Source: Rhodohalobacter sulfatireducens (GTDB taxonomy: Bacteria > Bacteroidota > Rhodothermia > Balneolales > Balneolaceae). Taken from it: a stretch of DNA of 64,000 nucleotides. Position 1 is the stretch's first letter; each line of letters begins with the position of its first letter. The notes under the pieces were generated by a model. The model worked only from the letters and a program-made list of their open reading frames with translations, was not told the origin of the DNA and made no database searches. The stretch spans positions 1 to 64,000 of the forward strand of contig NZ_JAKLWS010000028.1 in assembly GCF_022012475.1 (NCBI RefSeq). Direction: 5' to 3'. A program made the translations under genes and the position numbers. Positions 2,698 through 64,000 of this stretch are shown here, one piece after another.

Positions 2698-4572
2698 TTA
2701 CAAATCCAATTTCTCAACAAGTCTTTCCGAAGCTCTGAATACATAACCGGCAGCTGCGGCTTCATCATTTTCCATTTCATCCACAAATTGGAGAATAGTA
2801 TTCCTGATATCATCCGTAATCAAACTTTCATCAAGGGTTTCAATCAGGTTTACTGCCCTGAGTTTAACATGTCCGTCCGGGTTATCCAGTGTTTCTTCGA
2901 TCAGCTCTATTGCTTCAGAGCTTTCCCCTGCTGCTAAAAGAGCCTCGGCTACAGCTACCCGGACAGTTCCTGAGGGATCATCTCTCTTTTCCAGTAGTTC
3001 TGATGAATACTCAGAGGCAGATTCTCCGCTGATTGCTATTCCCATCGCTGCCCAAAACCGAACGGAAGATTCGGAATGGTCTAAACGGGTGACTAATTCT
3101 TCCATATTATTTTCAGGTTGAAATGAAGCTATCTCCGCAGTTTCAATGATCTGATTGATCGGAACATTGTCCTCGCGAACAGCATCATAGAGCGGACGTT
3201 CTCCCCGAAGATCATCCAAAACTCCTTCAGGAATAAAGCCAAGGTCATTAATTTGCCGAACCCATTCGGAGTTTGCTTCACGTAAACGGCGCAGATCTTC
3301 TTGATAGGCAGGATCTTCCGCCAGATTATTCACACTATACGGGTCTTCCGATATCAAATAGAGTTCCTCGGCGGGTTTCGGCTCAAAAAACTGGCTCTGA
3401 ATTTCATTCAGATTTCCAGCCTGGTACTCCTCCTCCCATACCTGCATGGTTGGTGCTCTCCATAAATAATTCAAATATTGAGCATATACTCGTTGCGGCA
3501 TATAATTTCTTACATACAGAAAATCCTGATCGCGAACCGCCCTTGACAGATCATATCTTTCATCCATACGGCCCCGGTACAAGTGGACGTATTCTCGCGG
3601 TTCTGTTTCATATTCGCCAAAAAACGGTTCCCCATCCATAAAATCCGGTGGCTGAATTCCGACCAAGCTCAGCAATGTTGCAGGAAAATCCACAAAAGAA
3701 ACCAGCCGTTCTGTTCGATTCTCTTCAGGTTTCAGATGTTCATATTTAGGTGGGAAATAAACAATCAGAGGAATTCTAAGTCCCCGCTGATTCATAAACC
3801 GTTTTGCGCCGGGCAAGGCTCCGCCGTGATCCCCATAATAAAAGATAATCGTATTTTCAGCTTCTCCCGATTGCTCCAATTCATCAAGGACCTGCCCGAC
3901 CTGTGCATCCATTCGGGTCATCTGATCGTAGTAGTGAGCCCAGTCTCGTCGAACCGTCTCGGTATCGGGGTGATAGGGCGGGACCGGTGCATCAACCGGA
4001 TCATGGATCAGGGTGTCAATCGGATCATGGAGCCTGCTTTCGTGAGTCGTTGTTAAATTTCGGATATGAAAAAACGGCTGGCCCTCAGCCCTGTCACTGT
4101 AATGTGCCTCCTGGCTTGATTCATCCCATACCTCCGGCTGATCGATCGTGTTATAATCTTTTTTCACATTGTTTGTGGTATGATATCCCAGATCCTGCAA
4201 ATAGGCTGGGTAAAACCGGATATTCTCCGGAATGGGATATACACTGCGCATATTCTCCGTTCCCATTCTGTTGGCGTAGGTACCCGTAATCAGTGTAAAT
4301 CGCGACGGTGCACATACCGGTGTAGTAGCGTATGCATTTTCATAGACGACTCCCGCATCAGCCAGACGATCCAGGTTGGGGGTATCAGCATAATCATCTC
4401 CGTAGGCCCCCATGAACGGACTGTTATCCTCACTAGTGATCCATAAAATGTTAGGCAGCTCTTCAGGTTCCGGTTCACCACAGCCGCTAAGCATACCTAC
4501 TAGTACAATGATAGCTCCAACTGCTAAAGTAAATTTACTTTCAAACATGCTTTTCATATTACTATAATCCAT
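2698..4572 (-). CDS. S1 sulfatase lipoprotein, heparan-N-sulfatase-like, with HEAT-like tail
   Basis: The 624-residue protein has a lipobox (LSGC, Cys31) and an alkaline-phosphatase-fold sulfatase domain from about residue 39. The metal site begins with a Glu-Asp pair (48-49) in an SEDN context instead of the usual Asp-Asp, as in N-sulfoglucosamine sulfohydrolase relatives. Cys87 in CAPSR is the residue expected to be converted to formylglycine. A THESRLH stretch and a GDHGG metal motif complete the site. Residues from about 485 form HEAT-like helical repeats. The architecture matches the sulfatase at 52732-54624, so the two are paralogs. The substrate cannot be read from sequence; sulfamate or sulfate-ester hydrolysis is inferred from the family. 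Confidence 0.9.
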   Translation of the reverse strand: MDYSNMKSMFESKFTLAVGAIIVLVGMLSGCGEPEPEELPNILWITSEDNSPFMGAYGDDYADTPNLDRLADAGVVYENAYATTPVCAPSRFTLITGTYANRMGTENMRSVYPIPENIRFYPAYLQDLGYHTTNNVKKDYNTIDQPEVWDESSQEAHYSDRAEGQPFFHIRNLTTTHESRLHDPIDTLIHDPVDAPVPPYHPDTETVRRDWAHYYDQMTRMDAQVGQVLDELEQSGEAENTIIFYYGDHGGALPGAKRFMNQRGLRIPLIVYFPPKYEHLKPEENRTERLVSFVDFPATLLSLVGIQPPDFMDGEPFFGEYETEPREYVHLYRGRMDERYDLSRAVRDQDFLYVRNYMPQRVYAQYLNYLWRAPTMQVWEEEYQAGNLNEIQSQFFEPKPAEELYLISEDPYSVNNLAEDPAYQEDLRRLREANSEWVRQINDLGFIPEGVLDDLRGERPLYDAVREDNVPINQIIETAEIASFQPENNMEELVTRLDHSESSVRFWAAMGIAISGESASEYSSELLEKRDDPSGTVRVAVAEALLAAGESSEAIELIEETLDNPDGHVKLRAVNLIETLDESLITDDIRNTILQFVDEMENDEAAAAGYVFRASERLVEKLDL

Positions 4573-15570: not shown

Positions 15571-16998
15571 TCACCGAACTTTTTCTTTCCATTGCTGCCA
15601 TTTGAGACGCATCTCATCCAACAATTCAGAATATGCCGGATTTTCAGCTAAGTTGACACCTTCAGTCGGATCTGCATTCAGATCATACAGCTCCTCGAAA
15701 AGAGGTTGACTGTCTATGTATCTCAAATATTTAAAATTTTCAGTTCGAACACCCTCCGATCGCGGAATCTGGTCGGGGAAACTGTGGTGTTCGTAAAAGA
15801 ACTCCGTCCGCCAGTTTTCCGGAGTATCTCCTTCAAGTATGGGTACAAGCGATCTGCCTTGTACTTCTTCGGAAGCATGTAAACCGCCCCAATCAAGAAT
15901 GGTGGGATGAAAATCGGTCATAAGTACCATTGCATCCCTTGGTGCGCCTTGCTTCGAAATAGGCAGTCGGGGATCATGAATAATCAACGGAATGCGGATC
16001 GACGTTTCATGACCAAACCATTTGCCCGCAAGGCCACGTGCTCCCAAATACATGCCCTGGTCAGCCGTAAAAACAACAATGGTATTCTCCAACCTTCCTG
16101 ATTGTTGGAGAGCCTTCATCATCTTGCCCAGTTGATTATCTATGCCTGTCACCAAGCGGTAGTATCGACGGATTGAACGCTGAAAATTCAGTGACTCAGG
16201 TGGACCCAGCCGGTATTCCCAGCGCTTACGTCCCAGCGAGTTGCGAATGAGTTCAGGCTGATTCCGGAAAAACTCGGGATCTGAATGAGGCGGTGCCGGC
16301 ATCTCATCTGTATCATACAACACTGCGGTTGAAGGAGAGGCAGGGTATGGTTCAATGGGATGGAATCCGTCTTGAACATGAGTCGCTTTAAACCCAACGG
16401 TAATGACAAAGGGCTGATCTTTGGGTGCTTCATTGATCATTTGAACAGCTTGATCTCCCAACCGGTCGGTCAAGTGAGTTCCCACACCGGGCTTTTCTTC
16501 CTCTGACCAAAATTGCCCTTGCCCCTCAAAAGACTGATCATTATCGAACATGCCCTCTGGTACGGGTCCAAGATGCCATTTCCCGACGTAGCCCGTATAA
16601 TATCCGGCTTCATTTAACAGGTAGGGAAAACTCGTTTCAGCCTGTTTTTGGGTCAGTTTTTCAAATCCGTCAAAGTATATACCTGTTCTTGCTGCATATT
16701 GTCCCGTCATGAAGTTCCCGCGGCTTGTGATGCAGATCGCTGTTACTGCAAACGCATTTTGGAAGGTGATACCTTCTTCTGCGAGAGCATCAATATTAGG
16801 TGTTTGAATGATTGGATCTCCCTTAAATCCAAATTTTTCGTGATGAAGATCATCAATGTATATGACAAGTATATTCGGGCGGGCATCCTGTTTTTTAGCA
16901 GATTGTGCAGATACAGGTGTATTAACCAGACCCAATACAATCAGAGTGAGGAAACAGAAAAAAATATAGATTTTGAATGTGAGGTTAATCAGACGCAA
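15571..16998 (-). CDS. Secreted S1 sulfatase with non-standard CITSR active site
   Basis: The 475-residue protein starts at TTG: an in-frame TAA lies shortly upstream and no ATG fits before the signal peptide (about 8-31). Asp49-Asp50 (IYIDDLHHEKFG) and Cys89 in CITSRGNFMTG form the active-site core. The third motif position is Thr, where Pro or Ala is usual for formylglycine formation. The TADQGMYLGARGLAGKWFGHETSIR stretch is of the iduronate-2-sulfatase/choline-sulfatase-like branch, and the C-terminus fits DUF4976. Otherwise full length, so the gene is probably functional, but maturation should be checked. Substrate unknown. Confidence 0.88.
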   Translation of the reverse strand: MRLINLTFKIYIFFCFLTLIVLGLVNTPVSAQSAKKQDARPNILVIYIDDLHHEKFGFKGDPIIQTPNIDALAEEGITFQNAFAVTAICITSRGNFMTGQYAARTGIYFDGFEKLTQKQAETSFPYLLNEAGYYTGYVGKWHLGPVPEGMFDNDQSFEGQGQFWSEEEKPGVGTHLTDRLGDQAVQMINEAPKDQPFVITVGFKATHVQDGFHPIEPYPASPSTAVLYDTDEMPAPPHSDPEFFRNQPELIRNSLGRKRWEYRLGPPESLNFQRSIRRYYRLVTGIDNQLGKMMKALQQSGRLENTIVVFTADQGMYLGARGLAGKWFGHETSIRIPLIIHDPRLPISKQGAPRDAMVLMTDFHPTILDWGGLHASEEVQGRSLVPILEGDTPENWRTEFFYEHHSFPDQIPRSEGVRTENFKYLRYIDSQPLFEELYDLNADPTEGVNLAENPAYSELLDEMRLKWQQWKEKVR

Positions 16999-38673: not shown

Positions 38674-40071
38674 TCAATCCTCAAAAAATTTTGCCCGGTG
38701 TTCTTCGGCAAAGCGCAGCAGGCGTTCAGCAATTTCAGGGTATTCGTCGATAACATTTACCTTCTCATATGGGTCGTGAACCATATCAAACAGGGCCGTA
38801 TCGATCTCCGCCTGTTGATAGAGGCCAGGAATACCATCTCTGCCGCCAACGGGGCTTGTCCTGTAGCCGTGGGGAACGTGCAATTTCCATTTTCCATCTC
38901 CGCTCATCACTCCCTGAAAATCCTGACCGTTTGTAAACGCATAGTACTCCTGCGGAGATTCAGTACCGTCGTCTCCAAGTATTAAATCCCATACATCTGT
39001 ACCGTCAATCTCATAATCGGGCAATTGTGATCCCGTAAGTTCAGCCAGGGTGGGCATCAGGTCAATTGAGAAAAATGTGTTTTGGGATACCGTATTTTCT
39101 TCAATTTTTTCCGGATAGGAGATAATCAACGGGCTTCGAATGCCTCCATCAAAAGTAGTTCCTTTGCCTTCCCGGAATGGCGTTTTACCGGAGTGATTGG
39201 CATAGGAGAGCCACGGGCCGTTATCTGATGAAAACAGGATGATGGTATTCTCACGAACCCCGTTCTCTACCAGTGCATTCACAATTTCACCCACAGACCA
39301 GTCGATCTCCATCATGACATCCCCATAAAGGCCCGTACCAGATTTTCCTTCAAATTTATCACTCACAAATAGAGGCACATGCGGCTGTGGGTGCGGTACA
39401 TAGAGAAAGAATGGACCGTCGCTATTCCTGTTGATAAAATCCACAGATTCTTCGGTAAACCAGGTAGTAAACTCTTTTTGATGATCAGCCGTCACAGAAT
39501 CGATCATCACCTCCCCGTTTTTCCAGTAGTGCATGGGAAACTGACCCCAGTACTCCGGATTTTCAGGATGATCTGCCCACATATCGTTGGAATACATGAT
39601 CCCGGCCATTTCATCAAAACCACGATTATGCGGGCGTGTATCCTCCTGGTCTCCAAGGTGCCACTTTCCGAAAAATCCGGTGGTATAGCCGTTCTCTTTC
39701 AGCATTTCAGCCATAGTTGTAAACTGCGTATCAAGTCCTCTGGCTTTTGGCGGGTGTGCACCAAAAAGCTGGTTTCGTCCCGGGTAAGTACCGGTCATCA
39801 ACGCTGCACGGGAGGCAGAACAGATCGCCTGCGGGACATAAAAATTGGTAAACGTTCGGCCCTCTTCTGCAAGGGATTGAATATTCGGTGTTGAATACCG
39901 GATTTCCATAAATGGGCTAAAATCGCCGTAAGCGGCATCATCCAGGAAAATCAAAACGATATTGGGAGTATCACTTCCAGGTTCATGAGTGGTTTGATTA
40001 GAGTCAGGCGTACAACCCATTATTAAGATGAGAGCCGCGGTTATTAAAAAAAATAGCTGGAGTGATTTCAT
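38674..40071 (-). CDS. S1 sulfatase lipoprotein with CSASR motif, arylsulfatase A-like
   Basis: The 465-residue protein has a lipobox (IMGC, Cys20), Asp44-Asp45 (IFLDDAAYGDFSPFM), Cys84 in CSASR (an accepted Ala variant of the maturation motif), GKWHLGDQ, PHPQPHVPLF and SSDNGPWLSY motifs. The overall layout resembles the sulfatase at 10887-12287 and the arylsulfatase A/GALNS branch. The 155-base gap downstream contains a CCCC/GGGG palindrome. Substrate unknown. Confidence 0.92.
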   Translation of the reverse strand: MKSLQLFFLITAALILIMGCTPDSNQTTHEPGSDTPNIVLIFLDDAAYGDFSPFMEIRYSTPNIQSLAEEGRTFTNFYVPQAICSASRAALMTGTYPGRNQLFGAHPPKARGLDTQFTTMAEMLKENGYTTGFFGKWHLGDQEDTRPHNRGFDEMAGIMYSNDMWADHPENPEYWGQFPMHYWKNGEVMIDSVTADHQKEFTTWFTEESVDFINRNSDGPFFLYVPHPQPHVPLFVSDKFEGKSGTGLYGDVMMEIDWSVGEIVNALVENGVRENTIILFSSDNGPWLSYANHSGKTPFREGKGTTFDGGIRSPLIISYPEKIEENTVSQNTFFSIDLMPTLAELTGSQLPDYEIDGTDVWDLILGDDGTESPQEYYAFTNGQDFQGVMSGDGKWKLHVPHGYRTSPVGGRDGIPGLYQQAEIDTALFDMVHDPYEKVNVIDEYPEIAERLLRFAEEHRAKFFED

Positions 40072-51250: not shown

Positions 51251-52588
51251 TCACTCAGATTTAATTTGATTGTCATAAAATTCCGGCCTTGTATTTTCAT
51301 CAATAATTTTTTGAAGCTTTAACAGCACTTTTTTTTGATTCCCTGACAACTGATCCAATGAGATCGGTATGTTTTCTTCTAAAGGATCTTTCGACAAATC
51401 ATAAAATCTACCGTCTCTGTAATATTTGTATCGGTGGGTTCGTGCAAACTCATCGCCGGGCCCCTCTGGATCGTTATTTCGATACCACCACATATAGAGC
51501 CAGTCTGGTAACTTGACGTCTTCCCCGTAAAGAACTGGGGCAAAATTCACTCCATCCAGTTCCAAATCTTCAGGAATTTCAATTCCTGCAACGGCTGCAA
51601 GAGTCGGAAAAAAATATGTAAATCCTATGAGATCATTATTAACGAGACCTTCTGGTATAACACTTGGCCAGTTTGCAATTAACGCAACATGAGTGCCTGC
51701 TTCATTAGACGACAGTTTCGCACCGATGAATTCTTCGCCATTTATTATCGAGGAGACTCCCCTGGCCGTTCCGTTATCAGAGGTAAAAATGATGAGTGTA
51801 TTCTCCCGCAGCTCCAGTTCCTCCAGTTTAGAAATAACTTTACCAACTAATTTATCAGCATACTGAACCATATCACCAAAATATTTGGGCTCTGTATGTA
51901 ATCCAGGTATGACTTTTTCCTCTTCATGATCTCTTCTTAGAGTGGGATCCCAATCAGGCGAATCGGGAGTCGGTTCAAACGGCCAATGTGTTAGATTCAT
52001 CGGGTAATAAACGAAAAATGGTTCCTCCTCATGGCGGTCAATAAAGTCCAGTACGTGATCATTTATAATGTCTGGCCCATATTCTCCATTTTTAAAATCC
52101 ACCTCCTCGCCATTGATTTCTAATCCCGGATTAGGGTAACGATTCGGACGACGAGTAAGCTGCCACAAAGCATACTCATCAAACCCAAACTCATACGGAG
52201 CATTCAGTCCGCCTCCAAGTTGCCATTTTCCACCGATAAACGTTGCATAACCGGCATCTTGAAACAGATTTCCGAAGGTATATACGTCCGGATCCATTTT
52301 TCCAAACTCTGTGTAGTTACGACTATTATACTTTCCACTCATGATGGCCAGCCGTGTTGGAGTACAAACGGGTGTTGCATGTGCCTGATTAAACCGAATA
52401 CCGGTTGCGGCCATGTTATCAAGAACCGGTGTTTGGTAAGACTCCCCTCCATAAGCCCCGATGGTTTCAAAGCCTTGGTCATCGGTCATGATTAAGATGA
52501 TGTTGGGTGATCTCTCCTCACTATCGCAAGACACGAGTACGATTAATGCTATTAGTAATAAGAAAGACCATACTCGAGATTTATTCAT
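51251..52588 (-). CDS. S1 sulfatase lipoprotein
   Basis: I start at the ATG at 52588; the alternative TTG nine codons upstream is weaker. The 445-residue protein has a lipobox (LVSC), an IMTDDQGFETIGAYGG metal motif, Cys75 in CTPTR, GKWQLGGG, a YYPMNLTHWP histidine and a TSDNGTARG metal motif. It ends with YRDGRFYDLSKDPLEENIPI. The short, compact layout is complete for the family. It is transcribed after the HEAT-tailed sulfatase across a 143-base gap. Substrate unknown. Confidence 0.9.
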   Translation of the reverse strand: MNKSRVWSFLLLIALIVLVSCDSEERSPNIILIMTDDQGFETIGAYGGESYQTPVLDNMAATGIRFNQAHATPVCTPTRLAIMSGKYNSRNYTEFGKMDPDVYTFGNLFQDAGYATFIGGKWQLGGGLNAPYEFGFDEYALWQLTRRPNRYPNPGLEINGEEVDFKNGEYGPDIINDHVLDFIDRHEEEPFFVYYPMNLTHWPFEPTPDSPDWDPTLRRDHEEEKVIPGLHTEPKYFGDMVQYADKLVGKVISKLEELELRENTLIIFTSDNGTARGVSSIINGEEFIGAKLSSNEAGTHVALIANWPSVIPEGLVNNDLIGFTYFFPTLAAVAGIEIPEDLELDGVNFAPVLYGEDVKLPDWLYMWWYRNNDPEGPGDEFARTHRYKYYRDGRFYDLSKDPLEENIPISLDQLSGNQKKVLLKLQKIIDENTRPEFYDNQIKSE

Positions 52589-52731
52589 CTGAAGTACAAG
52601 TATTTTATGATTCAATAAATGAATTGATTTCGTTACATCTACAGGGCACTCTTTAAATACTAAATAAATTTGAAATATTTGATAAGGAGTTTTGGTGATG
52701 TTAAATCAATTTCAGATATACCGAAATAAGA

Positions 52732-54624
52732 TCATTCACGGTTACCCAGGTGTTCGATGCGCCAGCCGATCTGTCGGGAATCAACGACCGGTTCAATTGA
52801 CCCAGGATTCACCTCATAGCCTAAATGGTCCCGCAAATAGGTCATTGTATTCAGCGCTAACAACACATCAGATTCATTATTTCTGGTGTTTACTATATCA
52901 TATAGTATCGACATAGGATCGCCATCACCGATAATCCCTAAAAATTCTGCTGCACGGATTCGCACCACAGGTGACCCGTCATAGATAAGATCTTTGGCAA
53001 GACGAATCATCTCCTCTGCCTCCTCTCCAAACACACTACAGGAGATCAGGGCCCAATATCTTTTGAGGGGATCGTCAGCCTCAAGAGCTAGTTTCAAATC
53101 ACTTTTCACTTGTTCGTAGGGAAGCAGTGTCAAATCTGCAATGTCTGACAATTCTGTGATGCGAGTTGTATTCTTTTGAGCAAATGAAAGTGGATCCTGA
53201 ACTGCATTTTTCACCAAATAGCTCTCTGGAAAAAGACCCAAGTCCGGCATCGATCTCATGCGCAGGCGAAGACGACTGCGCATCTCTTCCAACACCTCTG
53301 CATATTCGGGATCATCGGCAAGATTTTTTGTCTCATGCGGATCTGATGAGATGTCATAAAGGGCTTCCGGTTGTCTCTCCTCAAAAAAATGTCTCTGTAC
53401 TGAGTTTAATTCACCGTCTTTATAAGCATCTCTCCACTGCCTGTAGGCAAGCTGAATATAGCGGTACCGATTCCAGAGGCCGTCAGGGTAAAATGGATGA
53501 AAGTTGCGTATATATTTATAATCACCTTTACGAAGCGCTCGTACCATATCATATTTTTCATCAAACCGATCGGCATAGCTAAATGTCTCATCACGCTCAT
53601 TAACCTGCTCAGCTGAGACATCCTTACCGAGGAATGGAACTCCGTCCATATGAGCTGGTAAGCCCACTCCTGCCAGGTTGAGTATCGTTGGTCCGAGATC
53701 AACAAACTCGACGAATCCTTTTACACGACTGCCGGGTTTAAACGGGGAAAGATGTTTGAACTTCTCCGGAATATAGACAACTAACGGCACGTGCAGCCCC
53801 GATTCGTAAACATACCCTTTACTCCTGGGCAGCACACCACCATGATCACCATAGTATATAATGATCGTATTTTCCATGAGGCCGTCTTTTTCCAGCTCAG
53901 TAAGCACCTGTCCAACTTTCTTATCGATATCAAGATGACGGTCCAAATAAGTTGCATGAGTATATCTTAACAATTCGGTATCCGGAAAGTAGGGAAAAAC
54001 CTCAACCTCATCGGGATCATGAACAGTTGATTGTGTGCGAAAGGTCTCTTCATTAAAATGGAGTCTGCTCTCGTGGGTATCGGGTCCCGTTTGTTCCATA
54101 TAAAAGAATGGAGTGTTTTCATTGGGTCGGCTGTTCCAGTGCGCCTCATTTCCATCTTCATCCCAAACATTTCCCTCCATCATGTTAAAATCTTTTTTCC
54201 CATTTACTACTGTGAAATAGCCCTGCTCTCTCAAGTAATGGGGAAACATTTCCCAACCCTCAGGCATGGTAACTTTTTCAATAGCCCGGTGGTGATGTGT
54301 CGCAGTTCGAGGAGCATATACACCATTCATTACCGCACTTCTCGCCACAGAGCAAACGGGTGAATTGGAAAAAGCACGGTCGAATGTGATTCCTGCCTCA
54401 GCAAGTGTCTCAATATTTGGCGTTTTGGCACCACCGGGGGAAAAATGGACCATATAATGGACGGAGTTGTCTTCAGAGACTAGTAAAACAATGTTTGGTC
54501 GATCATGAACCTCTGTTGAACTGTTTGCAATTGAAACAACCGGGATGAGTAAAAGAAGAGTAACAATCCAGTACAAGTGTTTATACTGTATATTTTTTTC
54601 AAATTCTACATACATATTTATCAT
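52732..54624 (-). CDS. Secreted S1 sulfatase with CSVAR motif and HEAT-like tail
   Basis: I start at the ATG at 54624; a GTG two codons earlier is possible. The 630-residue protein has a hydrophobic signal (about 17-33), the SEDN variant metal motif, and Cys91 in CSVARS where CxPSR is expected, so both the third and fourth motif positions differ from consensus. Arg is kept. THESRLH and YYGDHGGVLPRSKGYVYESG are conserved with the sulfatase at 2698-4572, as is the HEAT-like tail (from about 490). The family is heparan-N-sulfatase-like. Whether the Cys is matured must be tested. Confidence 0.88.
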   Translation of the reverse strand: MINMYVEFEKNIQYKHLYWIVTLLLLIPVVSIANSSTEVHDRPNIVLLVSEDNSVHYMVHFSPGGAKTPNIETLAEAGITFDRAFSNSPVCSVARSAVMNGVYAPRTATHHHRAIEKVTMPEGWEMFPHYLREQGYFTVVNGKKDFNMMEGNVWDEDGNEAHWNSRPNENTPFFYMEQTGPDTHESRLHFNEETFRTQSTVHDPDEVEVFPYFPDTELLRYTHATYLDRHLDIDKKVGQVLTELEKDGLMENTIIIYYGDHGGVLPRSKGYVYESGLHVPLVVYIPEKFKHLSPFKPGSRVKGFVEFVDLGPTILNLAGVGLPAHMDGVPFLGKDVSAEQVNERDETFSYADRFDEKYDMVRALRKGDYKYIRNFHPFYPDGLWNRYRYIQLAYRQWRDAYKDGELNSVQRHFFEERQPEALYDISSDPHETKNLADDPEYAEVLEEMRSRLRLRMRSMPDLGLFPESYLVKNAVQDPLSFAQKNTTRITELSDIADLTLLPYEQVKSDLKLALEADDPLKRYWALISCSVFGEEAEEMIRLAKDLIYDGSPVVRIRAAEFLGIIGDGDPMSILYDIVNTRNNESDVLLALNTMTYLRDHLGYEVNPGSIEPVVDSRQIGWRIEHLGNRE

Positions 54625-54678
54625 GGACACATTATAAGTCCTGACTAATTAAGGGACCATTTCAATAGATTAAGTGCT

Positions 54679-54750: not shown

Positions 54751-56304
54751 TTAAGGACGACTGCGGCCATTCCTGTCATAATCTTCAAGTATGCCCTGTA
54801 AGCGATTAACCACATCCGGATGATCCAACCATAAATTATTCGTTTCATCCAAATCATCCTCAAGGTTATAGAGTTGACCTTCCGGTCCGCCGGCTTCCGG
54901 CTCAATAGAAACAGGATCTGTGAAGCCACCTGAACCAAGTGATTCAATCAGCTTCCATTTGCCATCCTGGATGGTTCGAACTCCACGACTTGTTACACTA
55001 ACAACCGGAGGCCGAATCGACTCTTCTCCAGAATGTTCACCTGCAAGAACTGAATAGAGACTGAAACTGTCCTCTCCTGTACTATCCGGAAGTTCTGTGT
55101 CAAGAACATCAGCAAAAGTAGCCATTAAATCCGTGAAAGAGATTGTCTGATGAGATACCGTTCCTTGCTCAACAACTCCGGGCCATCGTACAATAAACGG
55201 CATGCGGTGCCCGGCTTCGTAAGCATCACCTTTCATACCGCGCAGCCCCCCCTGGGAATCGTGATCAAATTGCTCTTTGTCTTTATCATACCATACCGGG
55301 CCGTTATCACTGGTAAAAATCACAAGGGTTTCATTAGACATACCTTGCTGATCTAATGCAGAAAGAATTTCTCCGATTTTCGAATCAACCATCGCCATAA
55401 AGTCTCCATACATACCTACGCCACTGACACCATCAAACTCCTGAGAAGGCAGCCATGGCGTATGTGGAGCCGGATACGCTATATACAGGAATAGCGGCTG
55501 GTCGGGATTCGATGAGCTGTGATCTTCAATCACATTGATCGACTCTTCCGTAAACCGGGGAAGAACATCTGCAAGATCGAGGTCCGGAGAAATACCGCCT
55601 TCCCGCCAGAACGCCCCCTGGATATCGGTCCAGATGCCACCGCTGTAATTATTACCAATGGAGTCTGATGGCGGATTTACCACACGGTCATCCCGAATAT
55701 AGAAATAGGGTGGAATATCAGTTGAAGCCCGGATTCCGAAGAAGGAATCGAAACCACGATCTACGGGACCACCTGGCAAAACCTGTCCCTCCTCGTAGGT
55801 TCGATAGGCTGCTCGTGTATTATTTCCGGTTTCCTCAGCATTTTCTTGGCTAGCCTGAATGGCTTCCGATTCGTCAAACCCTAAATGCCATTTCCCAACC
55901 ATTGCCGTATGATAACTTTCAGACTGTAACATGGAGCCAATTGTCATTCGATCTTCCTCTATCACGGGCTGCTCAGGCCAAACATTTGTATTCGTTCGGA
56001 ATGGGTAACGGCCCGTCAGCAATCCATATCGTGACGGATGACAAACTGCGCCGGGTGCATGAGCATCCGTAAAACGCATTCCTTCAGTTGCAAGCCTATC
56101 AAGGTTGGGTGTTGGAATCTTTGATTGCGGATTATAACTTTTGAGATCCCCGTATCCCATGTCATCGACGAGGATGAGCAGAATGTTGGGTTTGCCCTGT
56201 TTTTTCTCATTGCTCCCAAATTTTTCTCCACACCCGGTAAGCAGCAGCAATACGGCACAAAACAACACCCTGAGCATATTATTATCTAAATTTACAGTCA
56301 TCAT
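54751..56304 (-). CDS. S1 sulfatase lipoprotein
   Basis: I start at the ATG at 56304; a TTG at 56322 would extend it by six codons. The 517-residue protein has a lipobox (LLTGC), an ILVDDMGYGDLKSY metal motif, Cys88 in CHPSR, GKWHLGFDES, a YPAPHTPWLPS histidine and a TSDNGPVWYDKD metal motif. It has a long middle insert (about residues 140-230) before the second half. The start lies about 20 bases after the stop of the frameshifted sulfatase locus. Full length and apparently intact. Substrate unknown. Confidence 0.9.
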   Translation of the reverse strand: MMTVNLDNNMLRVLFCAVLLLLTGCGEKFGSNEKKQGKPNILLILVDDMGYGDLKSYNPQSKIPTPNLDRLATEGMRFTDAHAPGAVCHPSRYGLLTGRYPFRTNTNVWPEQPVIEEDRMTIGSMLQSESYHTAMVGKWHLGFDESEAIQASQENAEETGNNTRAAYRTYEEGQVLPGGPVDRGFDSFFGIRASTDIPPYFYIRDDRVVNPPSDSIGNNYSGGIWTDIQGAFWREGGISPDLDLADVLPRFTEESINVIEDHSSSNPDQPLFLYIAYPAPHTPWLPSQEFDGVSGVGMYGDFMAMVDSKIGEILSALDQQGMSNETLVIFTSDNGPVWYDKDKEQFDHDSQGGLRGMKGDAYEAGHRMPFIVRWPGVVEQGTVSHQTISFTDLMATFADVLDTELPDSTGEDSFSLYSVLAGEHSGEESIRPPVVSVTSRGVRTIQDGKWKLIESLGSGGFTDPVSIEPEAGGPEGQLYNLEDDLDETNNLWLDHPDVVNRLQGILEDYDRNGRSRP

Positions 56305-56324
56305 AGCATAATTATTGATCAATA

Positions 56325-57795
56325 TTATCTGTTAGTCCTCAATGCAGGATACTTGCCATTTCTAGCCTTAATATAACTGTGCATTTCTTTTCTGAGCATT
56401 TCTGTTTTATCCGGATATTGTTCTGCAATATTTTTCTGTTCCTCAATATCATTACTCAGATTATATAGCTCAACAGAATTGTCTTCATAAAACTCAATCA
56501 ATTTCCAGTTACCCTGGCGAATAGCAGATCCCGGCCTCCAGGTGGAACCATGATAATGAGGGTAATGCCACACCAATGTTCTTTCCTTTCGTCTGTCTGA
56601 GTTTTTTAGATAAGGAACAATGCTTTCTCCATCCATATGTTGATCTTTTTGCATTGGCAGACCGGCCAATTCCAGAAGAGTGGGATAATAATCCATACTT
56701 GTCACCGGCTGACTGGAAATCTCACCTTCCGGCAAATTGGGACCCTTGATGATTAAAGGCACCCTAATTCCACCCTCATAAGCCCATCCTTTCCCGGCTC
56801 TGAGTGGACTAACAGCTGTTGGCCCAATATTTTTCAAGGTTGTTAGCCCCCCATTATCCGAAGTAAAAACGATGATGGTTTTTTTCGATAAATGCAGTGA
56901 TTCCAGCTTGTCCAATATTTTACCCACATTTTTATCCATAGAACGAACCATAGCAGCATACTTATCGTCTGTCTGGTTCAGTCTAGTCTCACCCAGCCCT
57001 TCCCTTCGCTTTTGGGATTCTCCCCCGTCCGATAACATTGATTTTTTGTATTTGTAAAATTCATCAAATTCTTTAGCCCCCCTGAATGGGCGTGTGTACC
57101 GTATAAAACGACAGAAATAGAAAGAAGGGATCTTCTTCCACACTTTCTAAAAACTGAATTGACTCATCAGCCAATCGATCAGTCAGATATTCGCCCTCCG
57201 GCCCATCATTCAAACGCGGGTTTTCATACGGAGAATAATATCCTCCGGGTGGAGAACCTCTGTCATGACCTCCTTTATTGATATCAAAACCCTGATGTTC
57301 GGGCCAGTATTCCTCTGTTTCTCCCAAATGCCATTTCCCGGCAAAAAAAGTTTTATATCCATGATCTTTAAGCACTTCGGCTAAAGTTACCTCTTCCAGG
57401 GGAAGGTTGTGGATATCTTCCGGTGGTATGAGTTTCGGATTCTCAACCCGATCAATTGGCCGGCCGGGAATCCAATCAGTGATGCCCACCCTAATCGGGT
57501 CCTTGCCGGTCATAATAGCTGCTCGAGTGGGGGAACACACCGGATGAGCTGAATAAGCATCTGTAAATCGGATTCCTTTTTTGGCCAAATCATCCAGATT
57601 AGGGGTATCATAGAAATCGCTACCATAACTTCCCAGATCCTTCCAGCCTAGATCATCTACAAGTATGAATAAAATATTAGGTCTGTCTGCGGGTACAGAA
57701 TTCCCTTTGTGACTAGAGTTACTTCCAGTTAAAAGAATAAAACCAAGCAGAATTGATATAAAGGATGATAGGTATTTATCAATTTGTTTATTCAT
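56325..57795 (-). pseudogene. Frameshifted S1 sulfatase
   Basis: Two reading frames together make one complete sulfatase of about 490 residues. The first (57795-57073) has a signal segment, Asp47-Asp48 ([16 protein letters not shown]), Cys87 in [14 protein letters not shown] and the substrate motif HTPIQ, then hits TAA. The second resumes at about 57079 with [13 protein letters not shown] and runs through a TSDNGGLTTLKN metal motif to a normal end at 56325. The break is in a run of six G (57077-57082 on the minus strand); five G would restore the frame. The ATG overlaps the stop of the upstream sulfatase by eight bases. Could be a real mutation, phase variation or a sequencing error. Confidence 0.88.
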
Positions 57796-59356
57796 CCCAG
57801 GTATCATCCTCATACTGCTCCTGCAGCTCATCAATTCTGTTCTTCAGTTCTTGCTGTATGTCGGCATATTCCGGTTCGCCGTATACACTTTGGATCTGCT
57901 CGGGATCAGTCTCAAGATCAAACAGTTCCCATTCGTTGTGATTTGGATAGTGTACAAGTGTGTACCGATCCGTTCTTACACCGTAATGTTTGGCTACTTC
58001 ATGTACTCTTGGCGGACCTTCGTAATAGTGGTAATAAACCGTATCCCGCCAGTCACTTGGACGTTCACCATTCAACAATGGAACCATCGATTTGCCCTGC
58101 ATTCTTGAGGGAATTTCAGCATCTGCCAGTTCTAATATGGTTGGTGCCAGGTCCAGGTTTTGTACAAGATCTTTGTTTACCGATCCTGCCTCGATTCCTT
58201 CCGGCCAGTGGGCAATCAACGGCATGCGCATCGACTCTTCATATATCCATCGCTTGTCGAACCAACCATTTTCACCCAAAAAGAATCCCTGGTCGCCGGC
58301 ATAAATAATAATCGTGTTATCCAGTAAATTTTCCCGCTCCAGGTACGAGATCATCTTGCCTACCTGGTCATCCACTTCCCGGATCACCCGCAGATAGTCT
58401 TTTATATACCTCTGATATTTCCACCGAAGAAGATCCTCATCAGACATCTGGTCGTAATGATCATACAGGTACTGGTTATTTTCAGCATAGGCGTCCTTAA
58501 TCCGCTCGAGCTGTTCATCTGTCAGACGATTTCGCTCAACTAAATTCTCCCATCCATCGGTCTGCTCACCGGTTTCAGGATGAATCGGCACTTTCAGATC
58601 CCAGGCCCAGCTCATGGTCGTTCCGATCTCCATGTCCTGCTCATGGGCAGGCGTTTCTAACCCGGAATAGTCGTAAAAAAGAGTGGGTGCCTCCGGCAGA
58701 TCCCGACCCCGATAATCATTCAATGCCGGACCCGGCAGCCAGTTTCGATGCGGAGCTTTGTGATTGTAAACCATCATAAACGGTTTGTCCCTGTCTCGCT
58801 GTAATCGCAGCCATTCAATCGCTCTCTCCCCGATGATTTCGGTGGTATGGCCATGCCTGTCCACATCTCCGTTTGAGGTTCTCATCGTAGGGTTATAATA
58901 AGGCCCCTGGCCATACAGCACTTCGTAGTAATCAAAACCTTGTGGTTCCGTACCCAAATGCCATTTACCAACCATGGCGGTTTGATACCCATTGTTTTGT
59001 AAAATCATTGGAAAGGTTTCGAGATCCAGTGAGATCGATTCTCCGTTGGTCAGTACGCCATTTTTGTGGCTGTGCATGCCTGTCAGAAGCACGGCCCGTG
59101 AAGGTTTACAAATAGAATTGGTGACAAAAGCATTGTCAAACCGCATCCCGCCTTCAGCCAGCCGGTCGATATTTGGGGTGGGAGTATGATCCAGTTTCAG
59201 CCCATAATTCAACGCTTCCTGGTAAGCCCCAATCGATTGTGCGGTGTGATCATCGGAGTACATGATGATGATGTTGGGGAAGTCTTGATTTTGCGAGAAT
59301 ACGGTTTCACATAAAAAGAAACAAATCAAAATGAATATGTTGATTCTTATTGTCAT
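57788..59356 (-). CDS. Secreted S1 sulfatase, iduronate-sulfatase-like; near-duplicate of 40288-41970
   Basis: The 522-residue protein has a clean signal peptide (about 1-21), Asp35-Asp36, Cys83 in [25 protein letters not shown], and [19 protein letters not shown]. Beyond the signal it matches the copy at 40288-41970 over nearly its whole length, with a short deletion near GTTMSWAWD and another near the C-terminus (GPPRVHEV against a longer version). It heads the five-sulfatase group and overlaps the next gene by eight bases, a sign of coupled translation. Confidence 0.93.
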
Positions 59357-61274: not shown

Positions 61275-62951
61275 TCAGTCTGAATATTCAAGTACTTGAC
61301 CATCCGCTTCGAGATCATTTCTAAGATCATTATAGTTTACATCTTGCACAGCTTGGCCTTCTCGTATCGCCAAAACAGCAGCAGCAGCAGCACTATGCCC
61401 CAAAACCATAAAAACCGGTTCCATCCGAATCGATCCAAAAGCAATATGTGATGCCGACATGGCTACTGGGACCAATAAATTTTGAATCTCATCTTTTTTA
61501 GGAATGAGAGAACCATAAGCAATTTCATAAGGCTGGTCGGGGCTCACTCCTATATCTCCTTCATTTTGAACATATCCTTCAGGAGTAATATATCTCTGTA
61601 CATTATGAGAATCGAGTGTATAAGACCCCATACCTATCGATTTGGGTACCTCACGATTACCTAATACTTCATGCTCGGTCATTACAAAATCACCGATCAT
61701 TCTACGTGCTTCACGAATATACAATTGATGAGGCCAATTACCATTATCGGTAAATTCATCTTTAGCTAATCCCCACCGTTTTACTTCGTTCTGAATTTCG
61801 CGTGGTACACGCGGATCATTTGCTAAAAAGTACATCATACCTTTCTGATAATCCTCATGCTCTTGGATGATCTGCTCACGGCGTTCATACGATGCTTCTG
61901 GATAGTCGTAATTCATACCCATGTAATCGGTACTTACCGGTCCATGGTTGTTCGTATCCGTTTTTCGGTTCGGAATTTCATCATATTTGGTGAAGAAGTT
62001 ATTTCTCTCATGCCAGCCAGACTCAAACAGACGTAATAAAAGAATATATTGAGATGGCTCGTAATTATCCGGTTTTGGGAATGGAACTTTATTATCAGGA
62101 TGATCACTTAAACACATTCTAAAACAATAGGCTTGTACTCTATGATCACCACTTCCCTTTTCGCCAGGTGGTGCTACCGACACGCCTCCAATAATTCCGC
62201 TGGAAGGGTCACCGGGTGATACATATGGATCTATATGAGGACCATCAGGTGGGAAAAAATGATTGTGATGGTATACGCCTGTCTGTACTCCATTCCATTC
62301 TTCATCATAGGTATCATTAGACTCCCTACCCACATGATAGCTGACTCCGGCGGCTGCCATAAGATCTCCTTCATAAGTTGCATCAATAAACATTTTACCC
62401 TTGAATCTTTTTCCACTTAGAGTTTCAAATGAGACTATACGACCATCTTCGGTCACAACACCATCCTTACGATCCAACCACTCATCTCTTAGAACTGTAA
62501 TTCCTTCGTCATTTATAAAATCTTCAAATACTTGTTCAGCAATATGGGGTTCAAAAATCCACATCGTTCCAAACTCCTCATCCAAGGCTGTAGTCCCCTG
62601 TCCACGATTTCCATACTCCGAACGATCCTGCCATTGCCAGGTCTCATCCTGCTGGTAGTATTCATACACTCGCTGATAAAACTCTCTGGATAGGCCACCA
62701 ATTACCTCTTTATTACCAGTATCAGTGAATCCAAGGCCACCGGAAGAAAGCCCCCCCAAATGTATATCTGGCGATACCATAATGACCGATTGTCCAGTCC
62801 TGGCTACTTTTACTGCCGCAGTAACCGCTGCCGATGTACCACCATAAATGATGACATCCGCTTCAAAATAATTCGAACTGGCAGAACCTCGATCTGTAAT
62901 ATTAATCGATAAAAGTACTGTAGTAAGAAATAAAATAATTTTTGTTTTCAT
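61275..62951 (-). CDS. Secreted FAD-dependent oxidoreductase
   Basis: The 558-residue protein has a signal peptide (about 1-25) and a Rossmann FAD motif VIIYGGTSAAVTAAVKVARTG near 33-53, then GGLSSGGLGFTDTG and KMFIDATYEGDLMAAAGVSY, which place it in the FAD-dependent oxidoreductase family PF12831. The C-terminal part repeats a flavin contact (PVAMSASHIAFGSIRMEP). Substrate unknown; a sugar or polyol is likely from context. The next gene upstream (62970-64000) encodes a close paralog, 18 bases away. Confidence 0.88.
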   Translation of the reverse strand: MKTKIILFLTTVLLSINITDRGSASSNYFEADVIIYGGTSAAVTAAVKVARTGQSVIMVSPDIHLGGLSSGGLGFTDTGNKEVIGGLSREFYQRVYEYYQQDETWQWQDRSEYGNRGQGTTALDEEFGTMWIFEPHIAEQVFEDFINDEGITVLRDEWLDRKDGVVTEDGRIVSFETLSGKRFKGKMFIDATYEGDLMAAAGVSYHVGRESNDTYDEEWNGVQTGVYHHNHFFPPDGPHIDPYVSPGDPSSGIIGGVSVAPPGEKGSGDHRVQAYCFRMCLSDHPDNKVPFPKPDNYEPSQYILLLRLFESGWHERNNFFTKYDEIPNRKTDTNNHGPVSTDYMGMNYDYPEASYERREQIIQEHEDYQKGMMYFLANDPRVPREIQNEVKRWGLAKDEFTDNGNWPHQLYIREARRMIGDFVMTEHEVLGNREVPKSIGMGSYTLDSHNVQRYITPEGYVQNEGDIGVSPDQPYEIAYGSLIPKKDEIQNLLVPVAMSASHIAFGSIRMEPVFMVLGHSAAAAAVLAIREGQAVQDVNYNDLRNDLEADGQVLEYSD

Positions 62952-62969
62952 AATGCTTTGTTTGATTGG

Positions 62970-64000
62970 TTAGCTGTATTCTGGTAAGTGAGGAGGCCAT
63001 TCGTTAAGATCTACATCTAATCGTTGGTCTTCTTTCAGAAGTTGACTCCTAAGTTCTCTATAGGGCACATCCTGAACAATACCATTTTGATTTATTGCAA
63101 TATCAGCGGCCACTGCTGATGATTGCCCCAAGATCATGAATACTGGTTCCATTCGAATAGAACCAAATGAAATGTGTGATGCTGAAATCCCGTTGCAGCA
63201 TACGAGTAAGTTTGTGCACTCCTCCCGTTTTGGAGTTAAGGATCGATAGGAAATCGCATATGGACCGCCGGGTGTATATTCAAGGTTCCCTTCATTTTGC
63301 ACATATCCGTCCTTTGTAATGTACCTTTGGACATTATGAGAATCCATATTATAGGATCCGAGACCAATCGAATCCTCGACGACACGCATTCTTCTGCAGT
63401 CATGCTCTGTCATAACATACTCGCCAATCATTCTGCGAGCTTCACGCACGTAAATCTGTGGAGTCCAATTCCCATTTTCTGGATATTCATCCGCGGCCAG
63501 ACCCCATTTACTGTACTCTTCCCGGAAATGCTCCGGAACTCTGGGATGATTCGCCATTGCCCACATGTGCCCTTGCTGGTATAGTCTATAATCTTCAAGA
63601 ATACGATCGCGGGTGTCGTGATCTCCGTCCGGATAGTCATAATTCATCCCGATATTATTGGTAGATACAGCCCACCTATTATTGATATCTGTTTTCCGAT
63701 TTGGCATTGGAGAGTTTATCCAGGGGAATCTATCATCACCAGCTTCAAAGTTACGAAATAGCAATTCATGCCTTAAGTCTTCATATCCTTCCGGCTTTTC
63801 AATGGGTATTTGATTTTCCGGCACATCGGTTAAACACATTCGATAACAGTATGCCTGGACCCTGTGATCACCGGAAAATTCTTCTCCGGGACCTGTAGGG
63901 TCAATCCCCGGCAGAACGCCACTATGACTTTGCCCGGGTTCTATATACGGATCTACTTTTTTATTGAAAATATGATTGTGAGATCTTTCTGTCTGAACAC
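62970..64000 (-). CDS. FAD-dependent oxidoreductase, N-terminus cut by window edge
   Basis: The reading frame stays open from the stop at 62970 to the right edge, so the apparent Met at 63839 is internal. The visible 343 residues match the second half of the neighbouring oxidoreductase: GDHRVQAYCYRMCLTDVPEN, PNRKTDINN, GSYNMDSHNVQRYITKDGYVQNEG and ASHISFGSIRMEPVFMILGQSSAVAA. The FAD-binding N-terminus lies outside. Together the two form a tandem duplicate upstream of cstA. Confidence 0.88.
   Translation of the reverse strand, partial: VQTERSHNHIFNKKVDPYIEPGQSHSGVLPGIDPTGPGEEFSGDHRVQAYCYRMCLTDVPENQIPIEKPEGYEDLRHELLFRNFEAGDDRFPWINSPMPNRKTDINNRWAVSTNNIGMNYDYPDGDHDTRDRILEDYRLYQQGHMWAMANHPRVPEHFREEYSKWGLAADEYPENGNWTPQIYVREARRMIGEYVMTEHDCRRMRVVEDSIGLGSYNMDSHNVQRYITKDGYVQNEGNLEYTPGGPYAISYRSLTPKREECTNLLVCCNGISASHISFGSIRMEPVFMILGQSSAVAADIAINQNGIVQDVPYRELRSQLLKEDQRLDVDLNEWPPHLPEYS

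Follow-up and report, generated by a model that had tools for sequence, protein, structure and literature searches.

The window, meaning the whole 64,000-nucleotide stretch of Rhodohalobacter sulfatireducens DNA analysed here, carries fifteen sulfatase genes, one of which is split by a frameshift. The gene of interest and the sulfatases that bear on it are located as follows.

52732..54630, minus strand: S1_8C-like sulfatase of 632 aa with a GTG start, comprising a sulfatase domain and a C-terminal region
54354..54340, minus strand: active-site motif C93-S94-V95-A96-R97, the predicted formylglycine site (TGC TCT GTG GCG AGA)
51251..52615, minus strand: adjoining sulfatase, motif read as CTPTR
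54751..56322, minus strand: adjoining sulfatase, motif read as CHPSR
2698..4572, minus strand: paralogous S1_8-like sulfatase with CAPSR; top PDB match 9bba, E 8.4e-96

The 52732-54630 protein scored 121.5 bits against PF00884 (cut-off 25), which makes it a sulfatase by the Pfam definition, and 62.5 bits against SGSH_C (cut-off 29.3). A HEAT_2 match at its C-terminal end was weak and under the cut-off, and none of the NCBIfam families reached a cut-off. The top PDB match was S1_8C (9bba, E 2.5e-160, residues 36-607), and the top five distinct PDB sequences were S1_8A, S1_8B and S1_8C only; judged by sequence, the protein is closest to the characterised SulfAtlas S1_8 members. Its hydrophobic N-terminus suggests that it is exported. 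The CSVAR motif reported in the original prediction at 54340-54354 was confirmed from its minus-strand codons, as was the retention of Cys, Arg and the metal motifs: E53-D54-N55, C93, R97, K145, H186, D262-H263 and K271 are all present. The metal-binding and catalytic roles of these residues were assigned by position and are presumably those known for the family.

The other proteins of the window include DUF1501, PSCyt2/PSD1, DUF7133-cytochrome, ThuA, GFO/IDH/MocA and 3-keto-disaccharide hydrolase types. Between 12564 and 51044, cytochrome, DUF1501, DUF7133, PSCyt/PSD1, ThuA and GFO/IDH/MocA proteins stand together with sulfatases, in a genome most closely related to those of Balneolaceae. The scan of 29 window proteins detected no GH150, GH110 or GH2 at cut-off and named no SusC/SusD-type transporter; one cytochrome protein gave sub-cut-off matches to GH2 and to a rhamnosidase N-domain. 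The split sulfatase (56325-57834) consists of overlapping frames at 57073-57834 (PF00884 positions 1-178) and 56325-57143 (positions 200-300), and the split is a frameshift of natural or sequencing-derived origin. At 61275-63839 two FAD-dependent oxidoreductase frames are paired and adjacent, of which the second matches the 416-position profile from 193 to 416 only.

A PF00884 search of the whole genome gave 39 match rows, one of them sub-cut-off and two belonging to one split gene. Motifs were read for 34 sulfatases, all of the Cys type (34/34); 31 have Pro at position +2, and the other three have Val, Ala and Thr. Two further window sulfatases lack this Pro, namely those at 15571-16998 (CITSR, Thr) and 38674-40071 (CSASR, Ala), and CETTR was read in a sulfatase of another genome (L208, G075). 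The CAPSR paralogue at 2698, put forward originally as the partner in a natural comparison, is real and shares 36% identity over 536 positions with the 52732-54630 protein. At that divergence the comparison is weak, since in a related but distant pair the contribution of the motif is not separable from other differences; a better natural experiment would come from closely related proteins such as L078 (Val) and L071 (Ala).

Conservation of the motif

Relatives were collected by a contig scan with search peptides that exclude the motif. The best 80 of 105 loci were retained, and 79 of these span the motif (L008 does not). Tallied without a motif filter, the 79 loci read CSVAR in 39 cases, CSAAR in 36, CSTAR in three, CSSAR in one and CxPxR in none; Cys, Ser, Ala and Arg of the motif were invariant and Pro was absent (79/79 for each, among the best 80 of 105). 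Reading frames for the 80-row alignment were chosen with a loose motif filter that all 79 loci passed, so the motif columns of that alignment are not independent evidence, whereas its other columns are. In those columns K145, H186, D262, H263 and K271 were kept in 80/80 rows, and E53 and D54 in 79/80, with a single gap. A quick tree built with the motif columns omitted, in which 21 of 78 inner branches are weakly supported, required at least 11 changes among Val, Ala, Thr and Ser at +2. Tally and tree together indicate that the clade, as sampled, has fixed C-S-x-A-R, where x is a varying small residue and not Pro. CSVAR is therefore a subfamily signature and not the isolated departure that it had first appeared to be.

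Among relatives whose motif could be read, the nearest three (L006, L007 and L010; 71, 69 and 64% identity to the 52732-54630 protein) each carry CSVAR, written in differing codons. Pairwise pS against them was 0.81-0.86 and pN 0.19-0.24; pS is saturated at these values, so no dN/dS ratio is given. With pN far below pS the gene is under strong constraint, and this contrast, together with the conservation of Cys, Ser, Ala and Arg in the motif, is more than chance would give. The sequence of the gene, its conservation, its relatedness and its constraint were all observed directly. A tblastn search of plasmids gave no relative above 46.5% identity, the top matches being from Persicobacter (46.5%), Catenovulum (45.7%) and Pseudoalteromonas carrageenovora (44.6%).

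The maturation motif of sulfatases is usually written CxPxR. According to PMC5066984, +2 in sulfatases at large is Pro in 87%, Ala in 369/4058 and any other residue in less than 1% each, Ser at +3 is just 55% conserved, and the updated sulfatase pattern permits only P or A at +2; PMC8746622 yielded the CXPXR rule only. The claim that both inner positions of the motif are altered consequently holds for one of them: Val in place of Pro is unusual, but Ala in place of Ser barely deviates. The original prediction had also weighed two contrary outcomes, that CSVAR is common and fully converted in the subfamily and that other catalytic residues are lost as a sign of decay. The motif did prove common, which goes halfway to the first of these, while the catalytic residues are intact, and the earlier interpretation of CSVAR is partly supported. 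Literature searches for CSVAR, CSAAR and "CSTAR motif" returned no sulfatase paper by title.

Comparison with characterised S1_8 sulfatases

The nearest characterised enzymes are S1_8A, S1_8B and S1_8C of Pseudoalteromonas distincta U2A, which have been assigned as 2-O-sulfohydrolases acting on 2-sulfated galactose, as described in PMC12549532; the S1 proteins of that study were all produced in two versions, alone and together with the FGE of M. tuberculosis. In a coupled assay, S1_8C allowed a galactosidase to act, whereas the specificity of S1_8A and S1_8B is largely structure-based (PMC12549532). For S1_8A, formylglycine was modelled at position 82 in one monomer and the maturation state of the second monomer was indeterminable (PMC12549532). 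The account of these crystals in the same source is self-contradictory, the methods giving protein made without co-expressed FGE and the results giving matured protein. In the deposited PDB chains S1_8A reads VCSTAR and S1_8C reads SSTAR; the latter fits a Cys-to-Ser crystal mutant, which that source names both C68S and C93S (PMC12549532). Formylglycine modelled in a CSTAR protein means that CxPxR is not a strict definition of a type I sulfatase.

S1_8C (PDB 9bba/9bep; PMC12549532) resembles the 52732-54630 protein over its whole length and shares the SEDN metal motif and the C-S-x-A-R frame, but it has Thr at +2 where the window protein has Val, and its mutated Cys was deposited as Ser. The S1_8C gene belongs to a lambda-carrageenan locus that also encodes GH150, GH110 and GH2; by contrast, no glycoside hydrolase reached its cut-off among the 29 proteins scanned from the window. 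S1_8A (PDB 9bb9/9bes), the CSTAR protein with modelled formylglycine and an assigned 2-O-sulfatase function, has only 514 aa and matches less closely (E 1.2e-62). SGSH (N-sulphoglucosamine sulphohydrolase, PDB 4mhx/4miv), which is also placed in S1_8 by PMC5066984, is distant from the window protein (E 2e-19). In the literature searched, no assay of a member with Val at +2 was found.

Maturation enzymes in the host and its family

The GGSxxC-x4-C cysteine pair was taken to be the bis-thiolate copper site of FGE. Such a copper site is described for FGE in PMC12123546. The genome that contains the window (5.1 Mb, 138 contigs, completeness 100, contamination 0.4) gave five PF03781 match rows in four proteins (L001-L004), and the pair is absent from all four (4/4). 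At the corresponding site L001 reads RGGSFNSEDATLRTYWR, L002 and L003 read RG[GA]SWMD, and L004 reads RGGSCATSKSHF; we presume L004 to be EgtB-like. The best score in this genome against the anSME profile TIGR03942 was 25.1 bits, with a cut-off of 349. With a same-genus FGE (L122) as query it returned distant matches only (best 49.9 bits), and a DNA pattern for the Cys pair gave no match. The missing maturase is a lead and not proof.

Across Balneolaceae, FGE with the Cys pair was found in at least 14 of 58 genomes (best loci read), and anSME reached its cut-off in none of the 58. Seven family genomes had at least 13 sulfatase matches, the richest having at most 32 candidates scored: the window's own, G012, G019, G029, G035, G038 and G052. 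Canonical FGE was present only in G029 and G038 among the seven, and the Cys-pair DNA pattern had no match in the other five. Ten sulfatase motifs were read in G019, all of the Cys type (10/10).

Maturation enzymes in genomes carrying relatives

In the wider set, 47 genomes were examined, starting from 48 of the 80 relative loci. Reading the loci showed FGE with the Cys pair in 20/47, and anSME reached its cut-off in 9/47, two of the nine having FGE as well. Neither enzyme was found in 20/47, a count weakened by the fact that completeness is given for 0/47; one of the 20 is a complete chromosome and most are of unknown completeness. The scores separate the classes: among the FGE loci read, Cys-less proteins reached at most 171 bits and those with the pair at least 286, save in G066, G067 and G082, which belong to the 20 without either enzyme, and anSME scores leave a gap from 160 to 395 bits. 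In G067 and G078, both counted among the 20, radical-SAM proteins match TIGR03942 below cut-off, with 160 and 128 bits.

The Cys-pair DNA pattern was run on those 20 genomes and the seven sulfatase-rich Balneolaceae (26 distinct genomes) and on six controls; G012 and G058 share an identical contig. The controls were recovered in 6/6 cases, and a reversed control pattern gave one match, in G072. Four FGE-less genomes gave matches (G070, G075, G080 and G085), all judged to be chance: L186 is a short low-complexity frame, L192 is another protein, and in L187 and L188 the motif lies in no open frame of 60 codons.

Sulfatase matches in the 20 genomes number 15 in the poorest and at least 57 in the richest, with no more than 57 candidates scored, and in every one (20/20) at least one sulfatase that was read is of the Cys type. 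Seven are named isolates (Labilibacter marinus, Algibacter mikhailovii, Wenyingzhuangia aestuarii, Flavicella marina, Planctomycetes Pan216, Flammeovirga aprica and Psychrosphaera sp. B3R10) and the remaining 13 are metagenome or uncultured assemblies. Canonical FGE occurred in 15/24 genomes with a Val member versus 5/19 with an Ala member (Fisher p 0.031). A link between the +2 residue and the host maturase is nevertheless not claimed, as only 4 independent pairs lie on supported branches and a sign test was unsupportive.

Discussion

The product of the 52732-54630 gene is very probably an S1_8 sulfatase of type I, near S1_8C, in which CSVAR is the clade signature and Cys93 is matured to formylglycine. 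The C-S-[V/A/T]-A-R motif would have been inherited within the clade, with small residues standing at +2 where CxPxR sulfatases have Pro, and with Ser (+1), Ala (+3) and Arg (+4) fixed. By analogy with published relatives, from which we infer both formylglycine formation and 2-O-sulfatase activity, Cys93 would be oxidised to formylglycine as in other sulfatases, and the probable reaction of the enzyme is the removal of a non-reducing-end 2-O-sulfate from a sulfated oligosaccharide of marine origin. Formylglycine in the native host is assumed, given that the window's genome yielded neither a canonical FGE nor an anSME.

That the altered motif marks a decaying or already inactive sulfatase is very improbable. 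Val at +2 is indeed rare in sulfatases at large (PMC5066984), but the other catalytic residues are all intact, the motif frame is retained in all 79 relatives read among the best 80 of 105 loci, constraint is strong, and the published CSTAR relatives are described as functional (PMC12549532); decay was rejected on conservation and constraint. On another reading, the Cys is left unmodified where the host has no maturase, and the protein would then either be a slow sulfatase or phosphatase or use a different chemistry. An unmodified choline sulfatase has reportedly been the subject of a published study, and the 20 of 47 genomes in which neither maturase was found, like the window's own, lend this some weight. 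We consider it improbable, because a host that has retained many Cys-type sulfatases, as the window's has, is unlikely to lack activation altogether, and formylglycine has been modelled in S1_8A (PMC12549532).

The canonical maturase of the window's genome might instead lie in an assembly gap or have been missed. The 138 contigs of the assembly, the canonical FGE in two of the seven genus genomes examined, its own included (G029 and G038), and the G067 and G078 radical-SAM proteins, which could be divergent anSMEs, all speak for this. It is nonetheless rather unlikely: completeness is 100%, the profile search and the DNA pattern agree, and none was found either in the same-genus G019 (10 contigs, completeness 99, 16 sulfatase matches) or in the Pan216 chromosome, recorded as a complete genome (G088).

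We tentatively entertain the possibility that many sulfatase-rich carriers of CS[V/A/T]AR, the window's organism included, use a formylglycine-maker other than copper FGE or anSME, with Cys-less SUMF1-domain proteins as candidates. Gaps, divergent maturases and unmodified enzymes are possible causes of the absences. Three close FGE homologues (L166 in G067, L170 in G082 and L178 in G066; 312-334 bits) carry Phe/Tyr and Glu instead of the Cys pair; their genomes are rich in sulfatases and yielded no canonical FGE. A SUMF1-like protein of 335-403 aa, the type of L002 and L003, is present in 7/7 Balneolaceae with at least 13 sulfatase matches (sequence-verified) and in 3/51 others (by matched range and length; G020 sequence-verified). 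Next after the L002 copy comes an oxidoreductase-like frame, and next after the L003 copy a sulfatase gene. This type was set aside as the maturase and kept as a candidate only, as it also occurs in the canonical-FGE genomes G029, G038, G071 and G084. The SUMF1-like family (L002, L003, L145 and proteins in L232-L251) has DPQxPxSxWW near its end.

A third formylglycine-forming system has been suspected in E. coli (PMC8379841). In PMC6388578, the strictly anaerobic Kiritimatiellales F1 and F21 are reported to combine several PF03781 genes with one anSME, which was called paradoxical; in F21 (G101, the source of L078) we found a single pair-bearing FGE (L163) and a single anSME. Counts of PF03781 genes alone mislead, because many, including all four in the window's genome, are without the pair. 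Literature searches yielded no survey of genomes that lack both maturases among the papers listed, which include PMC8379841, PMC6388578 and PMC10880615.

The original sighting was correct, and CSVAR is the ordinary signature of a known marine sulfatase group. The CxPxR (or CxAxR) working rule for maturation is corrected by a broad clade that uses CS[V/A/T]AR; motif filters would miss this clade, and Val and Thr at +2 should be acceptable to maturases. The missing maturase matters more than the motif, and the maturation route of the host is worth pursuing. Genomes without known maturases are where the suspected third route should be sought, and a list of sulfatase-rich genomes without either maturase would make that question directly searchable.
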